Translations under genes and position numbers: made by a program
Shown: positions 6,077-25,060 of the stretch, piece by piece
Numbering within the stretch: the first letter of the stretch is position 1
How the letters are laid out: each line of letters opens with the position of its first letter
From: Ruminococcus flavefaciens
Lineage (GTDB): Bacteria > Bacillota > Clostridia > Oscillospirales > Ruminococcaceae
Length of the DNA stretch: 64,000 bases
Assembly: GCA_902766595.1 (NCBI GenBank)
Contig: CACXEJ010000013.1
Span: forward strand, 47,935-111,934
Direction of reading: 5' to 3'
Notes under the pieces: model-generated
The model's input: the letters and a program-made list of their open reading frames with translations, nothing else
What the model was told of the DNA's origin: nothing
The model's database searches: none

Positions 6077-7303
6077 GTGGATATAAGAATAGAACCTTCA
6101 CAGCTCAGAGGAACTGTTGATATACCGGCTTCAAAGAGCTGCGCTCACAGAGCACTCATCAGTGCGGCACTTGCCGAAGGAATTTCCGTAATAAGCGGAG
6201 TTTCGATGTCAAAGGACATTGAGGCGACTATCGGCGCAATGACTGCTCTCGGTGCTGAATTCAGTGTGGACGGCACGACTGTCACAGTTAGCGGTATAAG
6301 CTCGCGTATGGACAAAGCTGTCATAGACTGCAACGAGAGCGGTTCGACACTTCGCTTCGTAATACCGATCGCAGCTGCCCTCGGTACGGACTCGCGCTTT
6401 ATCGGACGCGGACGCCTTCAGCAGAGACCTATCGACATCTATACAAGAGAGCTCGGCAAAAACGGCATAAAGTTCCTGACTGAGACTATGCCGTATGATA
6501 TTACGGGCACTCTTAAAGGCGGCATATTCGAGATAGAGGGCAACGTTTCCTCGCAGTTCGTCACAGGACTCCTCTTTGCGCTTCCGCTGCTTGAGGGCAA
6601 CTCAGAGATACGTCTTACCTCGCACCTTGAGTCAAGACCGTATGTCGATATAACGATAGACATTCTGCGCCGTTTCGGGATAACCGTTGAGAACAGCGAG
6701 AACGGTTTCCGCATTGTGGGAGGACAGAAATACAAGCCTTATGATTACAGAGTCGAGGGCGATTACTCGCAGGCAGCATTTTTCTATGTGGCGAATGCTC
6801 TCGGTTCTGAGGTGAATATAGCAAATCTTGTCCCGGACAGCGTTCAGGGCGACAGGAAAATACTTGAAATTCTTAACGAAACGTGTTATAATGGTAGCAT
6901 AGGCTGTTACAGAGCCGATTGTTCGGATATTCCCGATCTTGTACCGATACTTGCCGTGCTCGGAGCATTCGGCAGCGGAGAGTCTGTGATCTATAACGCA
7001 CAGAGACTCAGGATCAAGGAGAGCGACCGTCTTGTGACTACTGCCGCTATGCTTAATGAACTCGGCGGTGACGTTGCGGTCACTGAGGACGGACTCATCA
7101 TACGCCCCACAGGCAGAATGCACGGCGGTACTATTGACAGTGCCGGCGACCATAGAATAGTTATGGCTGCGGCGATCGCTGCTACAAAAACAGACGGAGC
7201 AGTTATTATCAGGGGTGCTGAGGCAGCCGAAAAATCTTATCCGGACTTTTTCAAGGACTACATTCATCTCGGAGGTAAGGCAAATGTCATCGATCTGGAA
7301 TAA
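6077..7303 (+). CDS. aroA: 3-phosphoshikimate 1-carboxyvinyltransferase (EPSP synthase)
   Basis: A 408-residue protein starting at GTG 6077, 5 bases after GGAGGGG. It joins phosphoenolpyruvate to shikimate 3-phosphate, the penultimate step to chorismate. Family landmarks are PASKSCAHRALISAALA (shikimate phosphate binding), ESGSTLRFVIPIAAALG, the SSQFVTGLLFALPLL region, GDYSQAAFFYVANAL and RLRIKESDRL near residue 315. The length is slightly below the usual 420-430. It overlaps aroC by 20 bases, so the two are translationally coupled. Confidence 0.95.
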   Translation: MDIRIEPSQLRGTVDIPASKSCAHRALISAALAEGISVISGVSMSKDIEATIGAMTALGAEFSVDGTTVTVSGISSRMDKAVIDCNESGSTLRFVIPIAAALGTDSRFIGRGRLQQRPIDIYTRELGKNGIKFLTETMPYDITGTLKGGIFEIEGNVSSQFVTGLLFALPLLEGNSEIRLTSHLESRPYVDITIDILRRFGITVENSENGFRIVGGQKYKPYDYRVEGDYSQAAFFYVANALGSEVNIANLVPDSVQGDRKILEILNETCYNGSIGCYRADCSDIPDLVPILAVLGAFGSGESVIYNAQRLRIKESDRLVTTAAMLNELGGDVAVTEDGLIIRPTGRMHGGTIDSAGDHRIVMAAAIAATKTDGAVIIRGAEAAEKSYPDFFKDYIHLGGKANVIDLE

Positions 7304-8318
7304 CAGGATATCAATATCTATTTTCGGCGAATCACAGGGACCTGCCATCGGTATAACCATTGACGGTCTCCCTGCCGGAGAGCATATTGATGTCGAAGCG
7401 GTATCCGGGTTTATGGCGAGGAGAAATATTGGTCTCGTCAATAACCACGAGAATATAATGCCGCACGTTATGTCTGGTATTTACAACGACAGGACTACCG
7501 GAACTCCTCTCTGTGCCTTTATTCAGAACACTTCCGCAAAAGCTCCGCAGCACACGAATGTTGACAGACTTTCGCGTCCCGGTCACGCTGATTACACCGG
7601 AGCTGTGCGCTACAAGGGCTTTGATGATTTCCGCGATGAGGGACATTTTTGTCAGAGACTCACTATCCCGCTCTGCTTCGCCGGAGCTATATGCGCTCAG
7701 ATACTCGAACGCCGCGGCATCTACACCGGCGCTCACGTTGCGAGCATACATAATATAAAGGACAACCCTTACGATCCGGTGAACATAACCCGTGACGGTG
7801 TAAGGAGCATAAGAGGCAAGAACTTCCCGGTCATCAACGACCGCAGAGGCTGGCTTATGCAGGACGATATTGAAAAAGCCCGTGAAGCAGGGGAGTCGCT
7901 CGGCGGAGTGATCGAATGTGCTTCCGTGAATGTTCCTGCCGGCGTAGGTTCGCCCATATTTGACGGACTTGAGAATAATATCGCTCAGCTCATTTTCGGT
8001 ATCCCTGGAGTTACCGGTCTCGAATTCGGTGCAGGCTTCCGTTCTGCGAGAATGGTCGGAAGTCAGAACCGGGACGAGTTTTACACAAATGAGCGCGGCT
8101 ATTTCGTTACAAAAACAAACAATCACGGCGGTATTCTCAGCGGTATTTCGTCCGGAATGCCCATAACGCTCAATGTAGCGGTCAAGCCGGTCCTCGATTA
8201 CGGTGACGGCGAGACAAAGCCCGAGACCTGTATGGTGCCCTCGGCAGTTGCCTGCGTTGAAGCTGCTGTAAATATCGCTCTGCTTTCACATATGATAGAT
8301 TATCCGAATTTCTGTTAA
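7284..8318 (+). CDS. aroC: Chorismate synthase, divergent
   Basis: A 344-residue protein; ATG 7284 is chosen because of GGAGG (7271-7275) and a protein start matching clostridial AroC (MSSIWNNRISISIFGE). It makes chorismate from EPSP with reduced FMN. Recognisable blocks are RPGHADYTG, GHFCQRLTIPL (the clostridial form of the FMN loop), GLEFGAGF and TNNHGGILSGISSGMP. Oddities: the signature GESHG reads GESQG (CAG codon), so an invariant histidine is missing. Near the C-terminus the usual GRHDPC reads KPETC, and the segment before it is about 20 residues shorter than expected. The overlap with aroA argues it is the working enzyme, but activity is uncertain. Confidence 0.85.
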   Translation: MSSIWNNRISISIFGESQGPAIGITIDGLPAGEHIDVEAVSGFMARRNIGLVNNHENIMPHVMSGIYNDRTTGTPLCAFIQNTSAKAPQHTNVDRLSRPGHADYTGAVRYKGFDDFRDEGHFCQRLTIPLCFAGAICAQILERRGIYTGAHVASIHNIKDNPYDPVNITRDGVRSIRGKNFPVINDRRGWLMQDDIEKAREAGESLGGVIECASVNVPAGVGSPIFDGLENNIAQLIFGIPGVTGLEFGAGFRSARMVGSQNRDEFYTNERGYFVTKTNNHGGILSGISSGMPITLNVAVKPVLDYGDGETKPETCMVPSAVACVEAAVNIALLSHMIDYPNFC

Positions 8319-8327
8319 GGTGATAAT

Positions 8328-8921
8328 ATGCAGGATGAAAATATAATGAAAATGGCGGCATTTGCCGACACTGAGATAAAGGACGTACCCACGCTGAATA
8401 TCCTTATCTGCTACCTTCTCTACAAGATCGCCAAGCCGGTCGAGACGGAACAGCTCTACGATATTGCCATAGGTACAGGCGTTATCAACTACTTCTACTA
8501 TCAGGACTCGATCGACTACCTCCTGAAAAACGGTCTTGTTGCCAAGGAGACAGACAAGGACGGTCTTGAGAGCTTCGTGCTTCAGCCGAAGGGTATAGAA
8601 TGTGCCCGCCATCTCAAAAAATATGCCCCGAAGTCTTACAGGGACAAGCTGGTACTCGGGGCACTGCGCTATTTCGCCCGTCTCAAAGCCGAACAGGAGA
8701 TCAAGATAGAGTATGAGCCTGTCGAGAACGGCTGCTATACTCATATACGCTGTCTTGATGTCAACTGCGACCTGATGGATCTCAAGCTCTATGCACCGGA
8801 CAAGACTCAGGCGAAGATGATAGGCGAGAAGATACTTCTCAATCCTGCCGGATTTTACGGCAAGGTGGTCGAGCTCGCGCTCTCCAACGAAGAGCCGGAT
8901 TACGATCTAAGTGATAACTGA
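8328..8921 (+). CDS. DUF4364 family protein
   Basis: A 197-residue protein behind AAGGTGAT, 9 bases after aroC. The N-terminal half (TLNILICYLLYKIAKPV, then YDSIDYLLKNGLVAKE-like text) reads as a winged-helix, matching the clostridial DUF4364 family, whose members are thought to be DNA-binding or partner-binding regulators. The C-terminal half is mixed alpha/beta with no catalytic motif. It is probably cotranscribed with aroA-aroC. Function unknown. Confidence 0.75.
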   Translation: MQDENIMKMAAFADTEIKDVPTLNILICYLLYKIAKPVETEQLYDIAIGTGVINYFYYQDSIDYLLKNGLVAKETDKDGLESFVLQPKGIECARHLKKYAPKSYRDKLVLGALRYFARLKAEQEIKIEYEPVENGCYTHIRCLDVNCDLMDLKLYAPDKTQAKMIGEKILLNPAGFYGKVVELALSNEEPDYDLSDN

Positions 8922-8976
8922 TAATAAAGCGCCGCTTGAAATACAGTGGTGCTTTGCTATTTTAAAGGAGAAAGAT

Positions 8977-9543
8977 ATGAGACCAGGTGAATTCCTTGAA
9001 ATAATACATTTTGCAGAGAAACTCAAAGATACAACACGTCACTGCACAACTTCCGGCAGACGGCACGAAAGCGTTGCCGAGCACAGCTGGCGAGTCTCGT
9101 TAATGGCTATGCTGCTGAAAAATGAATTCCGTGCGCTTGATACAGACAAGGTTATCCGTATGTGCTTGATACACGATCTCGGTGAGTGCTTCACCGGCGA
9201 TATACCGGCTTTTGACAAGACTAACGCGGACCGCGATACTGAGGAGAAGCTGCTGAATAAATGGGTATCAGGTCTGCCGGAGGAGGTCTCAGGTGAACTC
9301 TCTGTACTCTATAATGAAATGGAGCGGCAGGAGACTAATGAAGCTAAGCTCTTCAAGGCGCTTGACAAGCTCGAGGCGGTCATACAGCACAATGAGTCAC
9401 CGCTTGATACATGGTCGCCCATTGAGCTTGAACTCAACAAGACTTACGGTTCGGATACGGTCGCTTTTTCGGAATGGCTGACCGAATTAAGAGAGCTGCT
9501 CAAATACGAGACCATTGAAAAGATAGAACGCGAAAAGGCATAA
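8977..9543 (+). CDS. HD-domain hydrolase, YfbR-like 5'-deoxynucleotidase family
   Basis: A 188-residue protein; ATG 8977 follows AAAGGAG (8964-8970) and is better than the longer in-frame alternative at 8911. Metal ligands of the HD fold are visible: HESVAEHSW (first His), CLIHDLGE (HD pair) and GDIPAFD, with a later Asp in KALDKLEAV. Relatives such as YfbR dephosphorylate deoxynucleoside 5'-monophosphates. The substrate here is inferred from family only. It ends just before a bidirectional terminator and is the last gene of the aroA unit. Confidence 0.8.
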   Translation: MRPGEFLEIIHFAEKLKDTTRHCTTSGRRHESVAEHSWRVSLMAMLLKNEFRALDTDKVIRMCLIHDLGECFTGDIPAFDKTNADRDTEEKLLNKWVSGLPEEVSGELSVLYNEMERQETNEAKLFKALDKLEAVIQHNESPLDTWSPIELELNKTYGSDTVAFSEWLTELRELLKYETIEKIEREKA

Positions 9544-20928: not shown

Positions 20929-20957
20929 TTGACGTTGACCGTGAAATATTATATAAT
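20929..20957 (+). promoter_or_regulatory. Promoter of the rpe-rnf-hprK-dnaE run
   Basis: TTGACG (20929-20934), 17 bases, TATAAT (20952-20957). It may serve the long chain of closely spaced genes from rpe to dnaE. Confidence 0.75.
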
Positions 20958-20988
20958 AAAAGTGTATGAAATTTCAGGAAGTGATAAA

Positions 20989-21648
20989 TTGAAGAATTTG
21001 GTTTCAGCTTCCGTACTCAGTGCGGATATGCTAAATCTTGAGAGCGAGATACGCCGGCTCGAAGCAAGCGGTATAGATATGCTGCACTTCGATGTTATGG
21101 ACGGTGTTTTCGTTGATAATATAACCTATGGTCTGCCTATACTTGAAAAGGTGAGAAGCAGCACAGATATGTTCCTCGACGTTCATCTTATGATAACCGA
21201 TCCGCGCAGATATGTTGAGAGATTTGCGGCAGCCGGTGCGGATCTCATATCGTTCCATATCGAGAGCACCAGCGACACCGCTGATACTATCAGAGCAATA
21301 CGCGCAGCAGGTGCAAAGACTGCCGTTGCGATCAAACCTGCTACTCCTGCTGAGGAGGTGCTCAGATACCTTCCGGAGCTCGATATGGTACTTGTTATGA
21401 CTGTCGAGCCCGGTTTCGGCGGTCAGAGCTTCATACACGACACTGTTTCTAAAATACGCACTATACGAAATAGAATTACCGAACTCGGTCTTGACACTGA
21501 TCTTCAGGTCGACGGCGGTATCAACGATAAAACTGCACCGATAGTCAAGGAGGCCGGAGCAAACGTTCTCGTTTCCGGAAGCTATCTGTTCAGTGCAAAG
21601 GATATGGCGGCATCGGCTGCCGGATTGAAGGAAGAAATAATATGCTGA
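20989..21648 (+). CDS. rpe: Ribulose-phosphate 3-epimerase
   Basis: A 219-residue protein. The start is placed at TTG 20989 because GGAAGTGAT precedes it and the protein then begins in the usual way (KNLVSASVLSADMLNLESEI). TIM-barrel landmarks are MLHFDVMDGVFVDNITYG (metal-binding His/Asp), VHLMITDP, FHIES, MTVEPGFGGQSF and DGGINDKT. It interconverts ribulose 5-phosphate and xylulose 5-phosphate. The end overlaps the RnfD-like gene by 7 bases. Confidence 0.95.
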   Translation: MKNLVSASVLSADMLNLESEIRRLEASGIDMLHFDVMDGVFVDNITYGLPILEKVRSSTDMFLDVHLMITDPRRYVERFAAAGADLISFHIESTSDTADTIRAIRAAGAKTAVAIKPATPAEEVLRYLPELDMVLVMTVEPGFGGQSFIHDTVSKIRTIRNRITELGLDTDLQVDGGINDKTAPIVKEAGANVLVSGSYLFSAKDMAASAAGLKEEIIC

Positions 21649-22640
21649 AAAAAGCCAGAAAAGAGCGGCTTATTTGGCTCGACATAATGATGACACTGAT
21701 GGCACTTGCACTGATGTCCTATTTTTACTACGGAATACGCTCGGCAGCTCTCTGCGGCATATGCGTGGCAGTTTCACTCGTTGCGGAGATAATCTCCCTG
21801 CGTCTTATGGGCAGACACTTCAAGGCTGATGATCTTACCTGTACCTCTGACGCTCTGATATTTGCGCTGATGCTGCCGGCTTGTATGGATTACAGCATTG
21901 CAGTGATCGCAAGCGTTTTTGCAGTAGTCGTCGCAAAGAATGTTTTCGGCGGCAGGAAGAATATGATATTTTCGCCGGCTGCGGCAGCTTATGTTTTCGT
22001 ACTCACATCGTGGGGAAGCAAGCTGCTTATGTTCCCTGAACCTCACAGCAGGCTCGGCGTTTTTGAAAAGCCCGATACGCTCACGCACTCAGCTTCCTAT
22101 TCATTCAACATCTCAGGCAAGCTCGATTACACTGACTTTGAGGTTCTGCTCGGAAATTTCAGCGGACCTGCCGGTTCTGTGAGCGTATTGCTCCTCGTTA
22201 TCTCAGCGGTAATACTGATTTTCAGAGGAGACATCTCTGCCGGTGCATTTCTCGGCTCGATCGTCGGAACCGGACTTTTCGCTTTCATAGCTCCCGTTGG
22301 AAGTTCACGCGAGGACTCGCTCAGCTACTCACTCGTAACGAATATGGTGCTTTTTGCATCGGTCTATATAATCGCTGACAAGAGAATAGCGCCTAAAAGG
22401 GAATATTTCGCGATTTTCTACGGACTTTTCGTTGCTGTTTTCGCCTACACGCTCGTTCTGACGACAGCTAAGGAAAATGCTATCGTTATGGTTTCCGTAC
22501 TGTTCACTCCTGTGGCACTCGGCTTCAAGAACCTTGAAAAGAAGATAAGCCTTGCAGAGCAGGAGGAGCTTGTCAAAGAAACCGAAGCTGCTGATGAAAC
22601 AGCTCAGGAAATCACGGAGGAGGCGATCGTCAATGAATGA
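21642..22640 (+). CDS. RnfD/NqrB-like membrane protein lacking the flavin-attachment motif
   Basis: A 332-residue protein with about nine or ten membrane segments. IFALMLPACMDYSIAVIASVFAVVVAKNVFGG and NMIFSPAAAAYVF match the conserved first half of RnfD/NqrB, and GSVSVLLLVISAVILIFRGD the second half. In standard RnfD the loop before that carries an SGAT motif whose Thr bears covalent FMN. Here the loop reads DTLTHSASYSFN, with no SGAT. The C-terminus is acidic. It overlaps rpe and the RnfE-like gene, so it belongs to one operon. The function of this reduced form is unknown. Confidence 0.82.
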   Translation: MLKKARKERLIWLDIMMTLMALALMSYFYYGIRSAALCGICVAVSLVAEIISLRLMGRHFKADDLTCTSDALIFALMLPACMDYSIAVIASVFAVVVAKNVFGGRKNMIFSPAAAAYVFVLTSWGSKLLMFPEPHSRLGVFEKPDTLTHSASYSFNISGKLDYTDFEVLLGNFSGPAGSVSVLLLVISAVILIFRGDISAGAFLGSIVGTGLFAFIAPVGSSREDSLSYSLVTNMVLFASVYIIADKRIAPKREYFAIFYGLFVAVFAYTLVLTTAKENAIVMVSVLFTPVALGFKNLEKKISLAEQEELVKETEAADETAQEITEEAIVNE

Positions 22641-23265
22641 ACGCAGAAGCAGTATTTTTGACGGTGTTCTCGGTGATAACGCCGTACTGTCAGGACTTAT
22701 GGTCATCTCGCCCGTAATAATCTGCGGAAACACCATAAAGAACGCAGAGGCTCTTATATGTGCATTTTCTGCTATAACCTTCCTGTCCGTGCTGATAGCC
22801 TCATTCGTACCGAAAAAGCTGCCGTACACGGTAAAGGTCATAATCTACGCGCTCATATCCTCAATAGTATATCTGCCGGTTAAGAATGCCGCAGAGAAGT
22901 TCTATCCGGATTCAATAACAAGAATTGGCATATATTTTCCGCTGCTCGCGGTGAACTCGCTTATAATACTCCAGTCCGAAGCACGTTTTTTCAAGATGAA
23001 AAAACCGAGAATGCTTGCGTCACTGACGTTTTATATAATCGGCTTTGATGCCGTTATGCTTCTGACAGCTTTTATACGCGAGCTCCTCGCATACGGAACT
23101 ATCCGCAGCAAAATGGCTGACGTCAATACTCTTATCAGCGGTCTGGGAGAACCCTTCGGCGGTTTCATACTGCTCGGACTGATGTGCGGAGCTTACCGCA
23201 AGATACGTTCGATAGCCAGAAAAGAAAAAAACACAGGGAGTGACTTGAATGTATCTGGTAAATGA
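22633..23265 (+). CDS. RnfE-like membrane protein with cluster cysteines replaced by Ser
   Basis: A 210-residue protein; ATG 22633 sits within the end of the RnfD-like gene. It has six membrane segments in RnfA/E topology. The conserved half-site GLCP reads VISP, and the second NC motif (VNCIILGRAEA in the family) reads VNSLIILQSEA, so both cysteines that hold the intramembrane [2Fe-2S] cluster are serine. FIRELLAYGTI and GGFILLGLMCGAYR are otherwise well conserved. It forms a set with the RnfD- and RnfA-like neighbours. Confidence 0.83.
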   Translation: MNERRSSIFDGVLGDNAVLSGLMVISPVIICGNTIKNAEALICAFSAITFLSVLIASFVPKKLPYTVKVIIYALISSIVYLPVKNAAEKFYPDSITRIGIYFPLLAVNSLIILQSEARFFKMKKPRMLASLTFYIIGFDAVMLLTAFIRELLAYGTIRSKMADVNTLISGLGEPFGGFILLGLMCGAYRKIRSIARKEKNTGSDLNVSGK

Positions 23266-23821
23266 CATAATCGCCTTTCTTGCAGCAAACCTCATACTCA
23301 GTCAGGCTCTCGGAACAAGTACGCTGTTCATAGCGGCTGACAGCAGACGAAAGCTCGTCGGTACGACCTGCTGCATAACATTATTCACAACGATCGGTTC
23401 AGCAGCGGCATTCCTCATAAACAAGGAGCTGCCGTCAGGATATAAAGATCTTACACTGATATTCTACGTCCTGACAGTAGGACTGCTCTATGTGGGACTG
23501 CTCACGACTGCATATTTCATAACTCCGGAGAGATTTGAAAAGATAAGAAAATACATTCATCTCTCAGCTTTTAACTGTGCTGTTATCGGAACTCTTTTCA
23601 CTATGGAGCAGAAGTCTGCCGATGATCCTTCACTTATGACACTGAAGGAATATGTGAAATTCGGCTTTGAAGCCGGTCTCGGATTTATAACGGCAGCCCT
23701 CATACTCACAGCTGCTTTCCGCAAGCTCAATTCCTCAAAAGTCCCCTCATCTTTCAGAGGAGGACCGGCAATTCTTATCTACTTAGGCATTATCTCTATG
23801 GCGGTATATTCGCTTAAATAA
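23249..23821 (+). CDS. RnfA-like membrane protein with one cluster cysteine left
   Basis: A 190-residue protein with six membrane segments. The family's N-terminal LG[IL]CPF motif reads LGTSTLF (Cys lost), while the second motif FNCAVIG keeps its Cys. Near the end, VPSSFRGGPAILIYLGIISMAV matches the VPxxFRG...LITAG end of RnfA. It overlaps the RnfE-like gene by 17 bases. No rnfB, rnfC or rnfG follows; the next gene is a DUF4015 protein. The trio may be a membrane core without its usual redox chain. Confidence 0.83.
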   Translation: MYLVNDIIAFLAANLILSQALGTSTLFIAADSRRKLVGTTCCITLFTTIGSAAAFLINKELPSGYKDLTLIFYVLTVGLLYVGLLTTAYFITPERFEKIRKYIHLSAFNCAVIGTLFTMEQKSADDPSLMTLKEYVKFGFEAGLGFITAALILTAAFRKLNSSKVPSSFRGGPAILIYLGIISMAVYSLK

Positions 23822-23848
23822 TATGTGTGGAATAAACAGGAGAAAAAA

Positions 23849-25060
23849 ATGAGAAGAAAAAATAAAGGAAGGAAAATCTACAAAACCAAAGAAAAAAATT
23901 ACTATGGCAAAACTCCTCTCGGCAAAGCTCTTTCCGTCGGTCTGACCGTGCTTCTCATCGGCGGTATCGGCTTTATCGGTTACAGTGTAGCCGAGCCGGT
24001 ATTCAAGTATACTAAGAAAAAAGGCGACGCTCCCGAGCCGCCTCCGACAGCAGCTTCGAGCGAGCTTCTCGAGCCTACGAGCAGCGCTCCGAAGATACAG
24101 CCCGGAGATCCGTCCGCAGAGACCGGAACAGTTGCACAGCCCGATTACAAGGCGGCTGTCATAAAGACCTCCGACCTCACCGACAAGGCTGCGCTCAAGG
24201 CTGCGATAGAACGCATACCGTCCGGACAGAAGGTAGAATACGTTGAGATACCGCTGAAAACTCAGGGCGGAAAGATCTGGTACACCAGCTCGGTATACTA
24301 TGCAACTCAATCCGGTGCTATACACAACTACATCAATCTCAGTGACATAATCGACACTGTAAAGGCTGCCGGCTATCATCCAGCGGCGCTCATAAGCACA
24401 TTCAACGACAACATTCTGCCCAAGACCGACGGTTCGGCAGGCTTCAAGACAGCTGATGCCGGTGACCAGTGGATAGACAATACTCCGGAAGCAGGCGGCA
24501 AGCCGTGGACTTCTCCCTATTCATCAACCGCTGTAAACTACATCGGTGATATAGTCACAGAAGCTGCCGAAGCCGGATTTGAGAAGATAATCTGCTCGGA
24601 CATTTCCTATCCGCCGTTCAGACCGAGCGATCTCGCTTTACTGCCGCCTGAGCTGAAGGAACCGAGCCGTTTTCAGGCACTGACTTCAGCTGCTAACCTC
24701 TTCTACGACAGGGCAGTCAGGGCTAATTCAACAATGGCGGTCGAGGTATCGGCAACGGACATTCTCAAAGACAACGCAGACGTTATCCGCGAACCCCTCT
24801 ATCTGAACGTCAAGTCGATAATCCTCAGTATAGACATTGACGCTCTCAGCGCCGGAGTCTATACCGACAGCACGGTATACGATTTCAACGGAACTGCTGC
24901 TGAAAAGGTCGAAAAGGTATTGGGGCTCGTAAAGGATAAACTCAAGGATTACACAAATGTTGCAGTTCGCATCTCTGGAAGTACAGTTGGCACAGATGAA
25001 CTGCTCAAGGCAAAAGAAGTCGCATACGAACAGGGCTACACCTCGTTCGTCATAGGATAA
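23849..25060 (+). CDS. Membrane-anchored DUF4015 putative glycoside hydrolase
   Basis: A 403-residue protein; ATG 23849 follows CAGGAG. It has a very basic N-terminus (RRKNKGRKIYKTKEKNYYGK), one membrane anchor at about 36-56, then a Pro/Ser linker. The outer domain reads VYYATQSGAIHNYINLSDII, KPWTSPYSSTAVNYIGDIVTEAAEAGFEKI and later EVSATDIL, matching the TIM-barrel-like DUF4015 group. The usual QFDYVRFP reads CSDISYPPF, so catalytic ability is unsure. It lies between the rnf-like genes and hprK. Confidence 0.65.
   Translation: MRRKNKGRKIYKTKEKNYYGKTPLGKALSVGLTVLLIGGIGFIGYSVAEPVFKYTKKKGDAPEPPPTAASSELLEPTSSAPKIQPGDPSAETGTVAQPDYKAAVIKTSDLTDKAALKAAIERIPSGQKVEYVEIPLKTQGGKIWYTSSVYYATQSGAIHNYINLSDIIDTVKAAGYHPAALISTFNDNILPKTDGSAGFKTADAGDQWIDNTPEAGGKPWTSPYSSTAVNYIGDIVTEAAEAGFEKIICSDISYPPFRPSDLALLPPELKEPSRFQALTSAANLFYDRAVRANSTMAVEVSATDILKDNADVIREPLYLNVKSIILSIDIDALSAGVYTDSTVYDFNGTAAEKVEKVLGLVKDKLKDYTNVAVRISGSTVGTDELLKAKEVAYEQGYTSFVIG

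Follow-up and report, generated by a model that had tools for sequence, protein, structure and literature searches.

How the Rnf complex and the Na+-translocating NADH:quinone oxidoreductase (Na+-NQR) couple the transfer of electrons to that of Na+ is still debated. In Rnf, the dimer of RnfA and RnfE is described as a Na+ path that switches between inward-open and outward-open states and is gated by reduction of an intramembrane [2Fe-2S] cluster (PMC11889175; PMC12174285). The ligands of this cluster in Acetobacterium woodii are C25 and C113 of RnfA together with C25 and C108 of RnfE; in RnfD of the same organism T156 is named with flavin mononucleotide (FMN), and riboflavin is held by N123 and D249 (PMC11889175). 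As mutants of the cluster ligands are reported to show no autotrophic growth and to lose activity (PMC11889175), it is difficult to separate the electron path from the ion path by mutation. Here we analyze a stretch of 64,000 nucleotides from Ruminococcus flavefaciens (hereafter the window; NCBI GenBank assembly GCA_902766595.1, contig CACXEJ010000013.1, positions 47,935 to 111,934 of the forward strand), in which three overlapping genes between rpe and a DUF4015 gene encode homologues of RnfD, RnfE and RnfA, named tD, tE and tA. This trio belongs to a lineage of atypical loci that have lost at least three of the four cluster ligands as well as the motif for covalent flavin, and whose membrane core nevertheless appears to be maintained by selection.

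Redox sites of the trio and its relatives

The assignment of the three genes to RnfD, RnfE and RnfA, proposed in an earlier note made from the sequence alone, is borne out by Pfam matches that all exceed the curated cut-offs and that also exclude chance open reading frames. The same searches uphold the neighbors given in that note, rpe and DUF4015, with no rnfC, rnfG or rnfB beside the window trio. In NCBIfam, the top matches of the trio were rnfD, RsxE and rnfA, all far under their cut-offs (85 bits versus 207 for rnfD), and matches to nqrB, nqrD and nqrE were also far under theirs (at best 51 bits for D versus a cut-off of 414). A separate and complete rnfCDGEAB cluster is found in the same genome (G000:C124). 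The RnfD fold is kept in the AlphaFold2 model of tD (predicted local distance difference test score, pLDDT, 88.1): its best Foldseek match is RnfD of A. woodii (9eri_D, template modeling score, TM, 0.78), and each of the 15 PDB matches at E<=0.001 is either RnfD or NqrB.

Residues were compared across 93 distinct loci in which D, E and A were found, comprising 31 ordinary Rnf clusters, the odd locus L052 and 61 atypical loci, the latter consisting of 49 with the order D-E-A (DEA) and 12 with the order C-D-E-A (CDEA). Genes were called on open frames with profiles built in this analysis (>=25 bits), each starting at the first possible start codon. L052, L123 and L132 stand outside the atypical count. 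Duplicate identifiers for one and the same stretch or genome (L001-L004, L009, L023, L025, L028, L031-L034, L065 and L111) were left out, as were L057 (contig ends in E), L101 (no D called) and L094, L098 and L105 (no E or A beside). Ligand positions in A and E were carried over from A. woodii through the ordinary Rnf proteins of the window's own genome, and positions in D were aligned directly.

Only one of the four [2Fe-2S] cysteines is kept in the window trio. As the earlier note had observed, this is the second RnfA cysteine, with the first RnfA and both RnfE cysteines lost, and the extended comparison places this loss at the level of the whole lineage. In none of the 60 fully readable atypical loci is more than one of the four ligands left (the last of the 61, L017, is gapped at one site); by comparison, all four are present in 24 of the 26 fully readable ordinary loci and two in the other two; five ordinary loci (L106-L110) end before the second RnfA cysteine. 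The lost ligands are mostly replaced by serine or alanine. A mere shift of the cysteines was rejected, as no column outside the four ligand places contains cysteine throughout the lineage; the additional cysteines that E has in this genus (C31, C185) do not stand at ligand positions. Separately, tD has cysteines typical of the genus, C41 in 34 and C67 in 31 of 35 genus loci, which are shared by no more than one of the 14 other DEA loci and by none of the 12 CDEA loci.

A similar picture emerges for the flavin of RnfD, for which the earlier note had reported the lack of an SGAT motif. Literal absence of SGAT proves little, since the ordinary RnfD of the same genome carries SAAT, but the wider claim stands with a less strict definition: the pattern D-x-x-[ST]-[SGAT]-A-[TS] is found at the FMN site in 20 of 31 ordinary RnfD proteins and in none of the 61 atypical ones. 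A motif located elsewhere in D was likewise rejected (D-x-x-[ST]-[SGAT]-A-T in 0/61 atypical versus 19/31 ordinary proteins); a looser pattern that permits serine occurs off-site once, in L090, among the matches listed. The residue aligned with the FMN site is threonine in 30 ordinary proteins and serine in one, and mostly serine in atypical proteins, with an ambiguous alignment in the trio, where T148, S150 or S152 of tD could match T156. The riboflavin ligand D249 is kept in 53 of 61 atypical loci, and N123 is present in 31/31 ordinary, 11/12 CDEA and only 6/49 DEA loci. Covalent flavin on atypical D proteins is thus unlikely, although still conceivable, because the flavin transferase ApbE is reported to accept serine, with only minor effects when the motif aspartate is lost (PMC12052999), and most atypical D proteins have a serine at or next to the site. 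The presence of an ApbE gene decides nothing in this respect, as it does not track the trio: it was detected in 16 of the 18 genomes examined, among them G002, which has the trio, and G027, which has no Rnf core at all, and was not found in the window's own genome (82% complete).

Neighborhood, distribution and descent

The genes of the locus and the residues discussed above are listed in Table 1. Because the genes overlap or nearly adjoin, with the end of rpe reaching 7 bases into D, D into E and E into A, and with DUF4015 beginning 4 or 28 bases past the A stop depending on its start codon, rpe, the trio and DUF4015 are likely one transcription unit. The listed open reading frame of tE begins at 22552, and the ATG that overlaps the stop of D was taken as its start. 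For DUF4015, Met9 is invariant, which makes the later ATG the likelier start.

Table 1 Genes and cofactor-site residues of the trio locus (positions in the window).
Feature	Position	Strand	Basis or remark
rpe, ribulose-phosphate 3-epimerase	20929..21648	+	PF00834 E=5.2e-73; TIGR01163 above cut-off; constant upstream neighbor
tD, RnfD-like membrane protein, 332 aa	21642..22640	+	PF03116 E=1.7e-39
tD Ser111, at riboflavin-ligand position N123	21972..21974	+	alignment
tD T-H-S-A-S, residues 148-152, aligned with region of FMN-bearing T156	22083..22097	+	no ApbE-type motif
tD Asp246, riboflavin-ligand position D249, kept	22377..22379	+	alignment
tE, RnfE-like membrane protein, 210 aa	22633..23265	+	PF02508 E=3.1e-22
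tE Ser26, replaces ligand Cys25	22708..22710	+	alignment
tE Ser109, replaces ligand Cys108	22957..22959	+	alignment
tA, RnfA-like membrane protein, 190 aa	23249..23821	+	PF02508 E=2.8e-18
tA Ser24, replaces ligand Cys25	23318..23320	+	alignment
tA Cys110, sole retained ligand (Cys113)	23576..23578	+	kept in 35/35 genus loci
DUF4015 protein	23825..25060	+	PF13200 E=2.8e-14; likelier start ATG at 23849

The surroundings of the trio are well conserved across the lineage. An rpe gene lies nearby on the same strand in 60 of the 61 atypical loci (all but L100), and DUF4015 follows A in 50 of them; of the other eleven, three (L018, L020, L026) are short stretches whose genome has DUF4015 beside the trio. 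Neither rnfG nor rnfB was found in the fetched stretch of any of the 61 loci, which for 26 short loci (L005-L030 as used) extends roughly 1.5 kb to either side of D. The earlier note had considered that clusters of adjacent strains might carry rnfB, rnfC and rnfG next to the trio. This holds in part, for rnfC: an RnfC-like gene is present in 12 of the 61 loci and in L057 (C-D-E, running off the contig), all from other genera and families, and is absent beside the trio in Ruminococcus; no relative with G or B was found. All 13 RnfC-like proteins have lost the GGxxFP stretch for NADH and FMN and have kept both CxxCxxCxxxC motifs for [4Fe-4S] clusters, and among three tested against the Nuo51 FMN-binding domain of Pfam, L046 scored above the cut-off and two others below (the stretch of L066 has an estimated end). 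The idea that Rnf genes accompany rpe everywhere was rejected, as 13 rpe loci of other families (L117-L121, L124-L131) show none nearby.

Several further arrangements were seen at this place. A MecA-like gene often separates rpe from the atypical cluster; it is encoded on the opposite strand and matched PF05389 in both cases tested (L046 4461-5039 and L072 near 8993-9500). In G043, rpe, the MecA-like gene and DUF4015 are all present at this place, and the trio is not. In G020, of the same genus, L058 (2664-7308) is a second, diverged trio (D 33% identical), accompanied by an rpe and a DUF4015 of its own, and the usual copy is also present.

The DUF4015 protein itself is modeled (pLDDT 84.8) as one long helix, residues 31-64, which is a predicted membrane helix, followed by a TIM barrel. 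Its closest Foldseek match is an uncharacterized protein (4s1a_A), with a weaker match to the hydrolase domain of PgaB (6au1_A), and a literature search, with preprints and most subscription journals outside its scope, returned one paper that mentions DUF4015 in a figure legend only. DUF4015-like genes, called with a profile built in this analysis, also stand behind ordinary rnfB in other families (L053, L055, L063, L076, L083 and L102, of which L083 is the weakest). An obligate partnership with the trio was rejected, since each partner occurs without the other (DUF4015 alone in G026 and G027; atypical loci without DUF4015). As DUF4015 is thus found with the trio, without it and behind ordinary rnfB, we treat it as a neighbor whose link to the trio is uncertain.

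Based on matches to the window D, 25 of 35 genomes of the same genus contain the trio, 22 of them together with ordinary Rnf and three with the trio alone, while four have ordinary Rnf only and six have neither. Among genomes of the genus that are at least 90% complete, the trio is found in 18 of 22, and in one of the four without it, G006, DUF4015 lies at a contig end. G002 (99% complete, 5% contamination) has the trio and no other match to PF03116 or PF02508, nor any to RnfC_N. In G026 and G027, rpe and DUF4015 are adjacent, 71 and 11 bases apart, and searches with PF03116, PF02508 and RnfC_N gave no match. G009 and G001, also of this genus, have no match to rpe, the trio or DUF4015 and keep ordinary Rnf (G001 is 79% complete). 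The named locus nearest to the window trio is from an uncultured Ruminococcus (D 93% identical), and strains of R. flavefaciens are also among the relatives. Beyond the genus, all 12 loci fetched from the same family are of the atypical kind and are flanked by rpe and DUF4015, and three genomes of the genus g26 have ordinary Rnf only. In a class-wide sample, the D profile at E<=1e-72, a strict limit that would hide diverged copies, matched 9 of 293 genomes (the window's included), all from the same order.

A tree was built from 50 of the 93 loci, with the ligand columns left in. On it, a branch with support 100/100 separates the 33 atypical rows from all others, and a branch supported at 100/97 does the same for 15 D-E-A rows from the window's genus and four other genera of the family. 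The D-E-A label requires at least two changes on this tree, which makes a repeated loss of C probable. Independently of the tree, the grouping is supported by the common location near rpe. Moreover, L053, an ordinary full cluster, is flanked by rpe and a DUF4015-like gene, which applies to no other of the 31 ordinary loci and suggests that the atypical copies arose from an rnf operon located at this very place.

For D, E and A, the ratio of nonsynonymous to synonymous substitution rates (dN/dS) was between 0.025 and 0.19 across seven pairs. The values for rpe were at a similar level (0.03-0.12) and those for hprK were lower (0.005-0.026, three pairs); some of the frames hold a few extra codons, as the first possible start codon was used. 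These values indicate that the trio is under purifying selection, and its interpretation as a pseudogene was rejected on the same grounds.

Ligands of the [2Fe-2S] cluster are missing from some fuller Rnf clusters as well, and this loss seems to recur. L061 and L099 (the latter at the same place as L133) keep two of the four ligands with G and B present, and all four are lost in L052 (C-D-E-A-DUF4015, no rpe seen) and, judged by eye, in L132 (C-D-G-E-A, no B beside).

Possible roles of the membrane core

The trio is clearly derived from Rnf and has probably taken on a different role in the membrane. Our preferred explanation, held tentatively and at slightly below even confidence, is that the trio represents the D-E-A membrane core of a duplicated rnf operon that has lost electron transfer and serves another membrane function, namely that of a redox-independent carrier whose mechanism we infer as follows. 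The [2Fe-2S] ligands, the ApbE flavin motif, and rnfG and rnfB are lost across the lineage, with an RnfC-like protein kept in some members. A and E would now move a small cation, with Na+ as the first choice, or a small solute by alternating access and without redox chemistry, while D would be their structural partner and the DUF4015 protein at most a separable one. Such an electron-free carrier is proposed because the cluster and the electron partners are gone and the dimer, its inner asparagines and an ion pair are kept. The earlier note had anticipated this in suggesting a scaffold retained without electron transfer, perhaps reused for transport or assembly, which fits the lineage-wide loss, the RnfD fold, the purifying selection and the gene content of G002, the function itself being conjectural. 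That the lineage would amount to a third machine of the Rnf family beside Rnf and Nqr, with an A/E Na+ path free of electrons that acts as a redox-independent ion or solute transporter and has mainly Ser and Ala in place of the ligands, is a possibility we hold with greater doubt.

Residues of the ion path give mixed evidence, judging from the alignments: much of the RnfE-side ion entry is kept and one functionally important RnfA residue is lost. The asparagines beside the lost ligands are retained in most atypical loci (RnfA N112 in 59/61 and RnfE N107 in 56/61, of which 47/49 and 46/49 in the DEA type). RnfE of the DEA type also keeps the pair made up of E115 (43/49) and a lysine or arginine at position 67 (49/49), as well as the gate residue L103 (45/49). 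In A. woodii, the RnfE changes R67A and E115K are reported to abolish autotrophic growth and E115Q to reduce it, E115A to grow as the wild type, and, in RnfA, T110G to prevent growth and T111G to have no phenotype. An interaction with the RnfB cluster is ascribed to RnfA residues K32, R154 and E158 (PMC11889175); K32 is kept in 5 and R154 in 2 of the 49 DEA loci.

A number of observations speak against a redox-independent carrier or weaken the case for it. RnfA T110 is kept in none of the 49 DEA loci, with alanine or valine in 48, and E88 of the ion-pair network is also kept in none. Retention of E115 is weak evidence, because only 2 of 12 CDEA loci keep it and E115A grows like the wild type. 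The sample is uneven, with 35 of the 49 DEA loci from one genus, and of the three genomes that have the trio alone only G002 is fairly complete, the others being 74% and 64% complete. Long branches, odd composition and the retained ligand columns could have helped the atypical rows to group in the tree, and other conserved cysteines of the Ruminococcus proteins might hold another metal.

This last point leads to a residual or rebuilt redox function, which we regard as unlikely and which would rely on a new metal site formed by C31 and C185 of E and C110 of A, on FMN attached to a serine of D, or on riboflavin. The two E cysteines are present in 34 of 35 genus loci, all of which have A C110, yet they occur in only 1 of 14 other DEA loci and in none of the 12 CDEA loci. 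The tolerance of ApbE for serine and for loss of the motif aspartate, the frequent retention of D249 and, in the CDEA type, of N123, the two [4Fe-4S] motifs of the RnfC-like proteins and the ApbE gene of G002 would all be in line with remaining redox chemistry. Against this, the flavin motif is absent from the site in all 61 loci, N123 is lost in 43 of 49 DEA loci, RnfG, RnfB and, in Ruminococcus, RnfC are missing beside the trio, and ApbE occurs independently of it. Rather unlikely, too, is a function in the cell envelope, in which D-E-A would anchor or serve DUF4015, a predicted membrane-anchored TIM barrel with a likeness to polysaccharide hydrolases, as an envelope enzyme and move or position a component of the cell wall or of an exopolysaccharide. 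Although G026 and G027 keep DUF4015 beside rpe without the trio, and seven CDEA loci and L100 show no DUF4015 with the profile built here, such a function would agree with the frequent position of DUF4015 after A (with three of the exceptions being short stretches), with the DUF4015-like genes behind ordinary rnf clusters and with the weakly PgaB-like barrel.

Alternatively, the trio could join C, G and B of the ordinary cluster to form an inactive or uncoupled complex, and so be a regulator or an alternative core of Rnf. This appears improbable: G002 has the trio without an RnfC match or an ordinary core, G009 and the three g26 genomes have Rnf and no trio, and the RnfB-facing residues of A are mostly lost, even though trio and ordinary Rnf occur together in 22 of 35 genomes of the genus and are both missing from G026 and G027. 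The absence of the trio from the rpe-DUF4015 junction of these same two genomes is also what a decaying, functionless leftover of the duplicated operon would produce, but a dead leftover is very unlikely in view of dN/dS values that resemble those of rpe, though above those of hprK, and of the presence of the trio in most of the more complete genomes of the genus.

The lineage constitutes a natural experiment, as it has lost the electron path and its membrane core is still under selection, and it permits the question whether A and E can move ions on their own to be tested directly. In practical terms, the cysteines of Rnf-family membrane genes in this order should be checked before such genes are counted as an energy-conserving Rnf. 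The reverse case was seen in one family of the same order, in which L094 (5652-9475, G277), L098 (5651-8648, G087) and L105 (about 6355-9166, G197) are C-D-G clusters with ordinary C motifs and no E, A or B found beside them; L094 has, judged by eye, an ApbE-like gene beside C. G087 and G197 have an E/A pair elsewhere, and G277 (99% complete) has no PF02508 match and may hold a half-Rnf for outward electron transfer.

Comparison with described systems

Within the scope of the literature search given above, no description of a cofactor-free Rnf core was found among the matches listed. The Rnf complex itself (A. woodii 9eri, Clostridium tetanomorphum 7zc6) shares with the trio homologous D, E and A subunits, an operon as deduced from the gene overlaps, a D closest in its model to 9eri_D, and, in the DEA type, several Na+-site residues on the RnfE side. 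It differs in having B, G and C, of which the first two were not found in the fetched stretches of the atypical loci and C is missing beside the trio in Ruminococcus, and in the [2Fe-2S] ligands, the FMN motif and RnfA T110 and E88, which the trio has lost apart from one ligand.

Partial Rnf systems with an RnfD/NqrB-type membrane domain are also known from the NQR/RNF-like flavinylated systems of Meheust et al. 2021, as defined there by a PF03116-PF00175 protein in a flavinylation cluster (PMC8238504). Unlike these, the window D lacks a flavin motif, has PF03116 as its only domain above cut-off and is still accompanied by E and A. Transporters of the ammonium/Rh and urea families have been described as distant relatives of RnfD and NqrB (PMC12174285), and the tD model matches them weakly (Foldseek E 0.01-0.04, TM only about 0.4), a likeness of structure alone. 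A parallel in history is Na+-NQR, which has been proposed to derive from a duplicated rnf operon with loss of rnfB (PMC4014512), an origin that resembles the one suggested here for the trio. The outcome would be the opposite, however, as NQR recruited a new reductase subunit and remained a redox pump.

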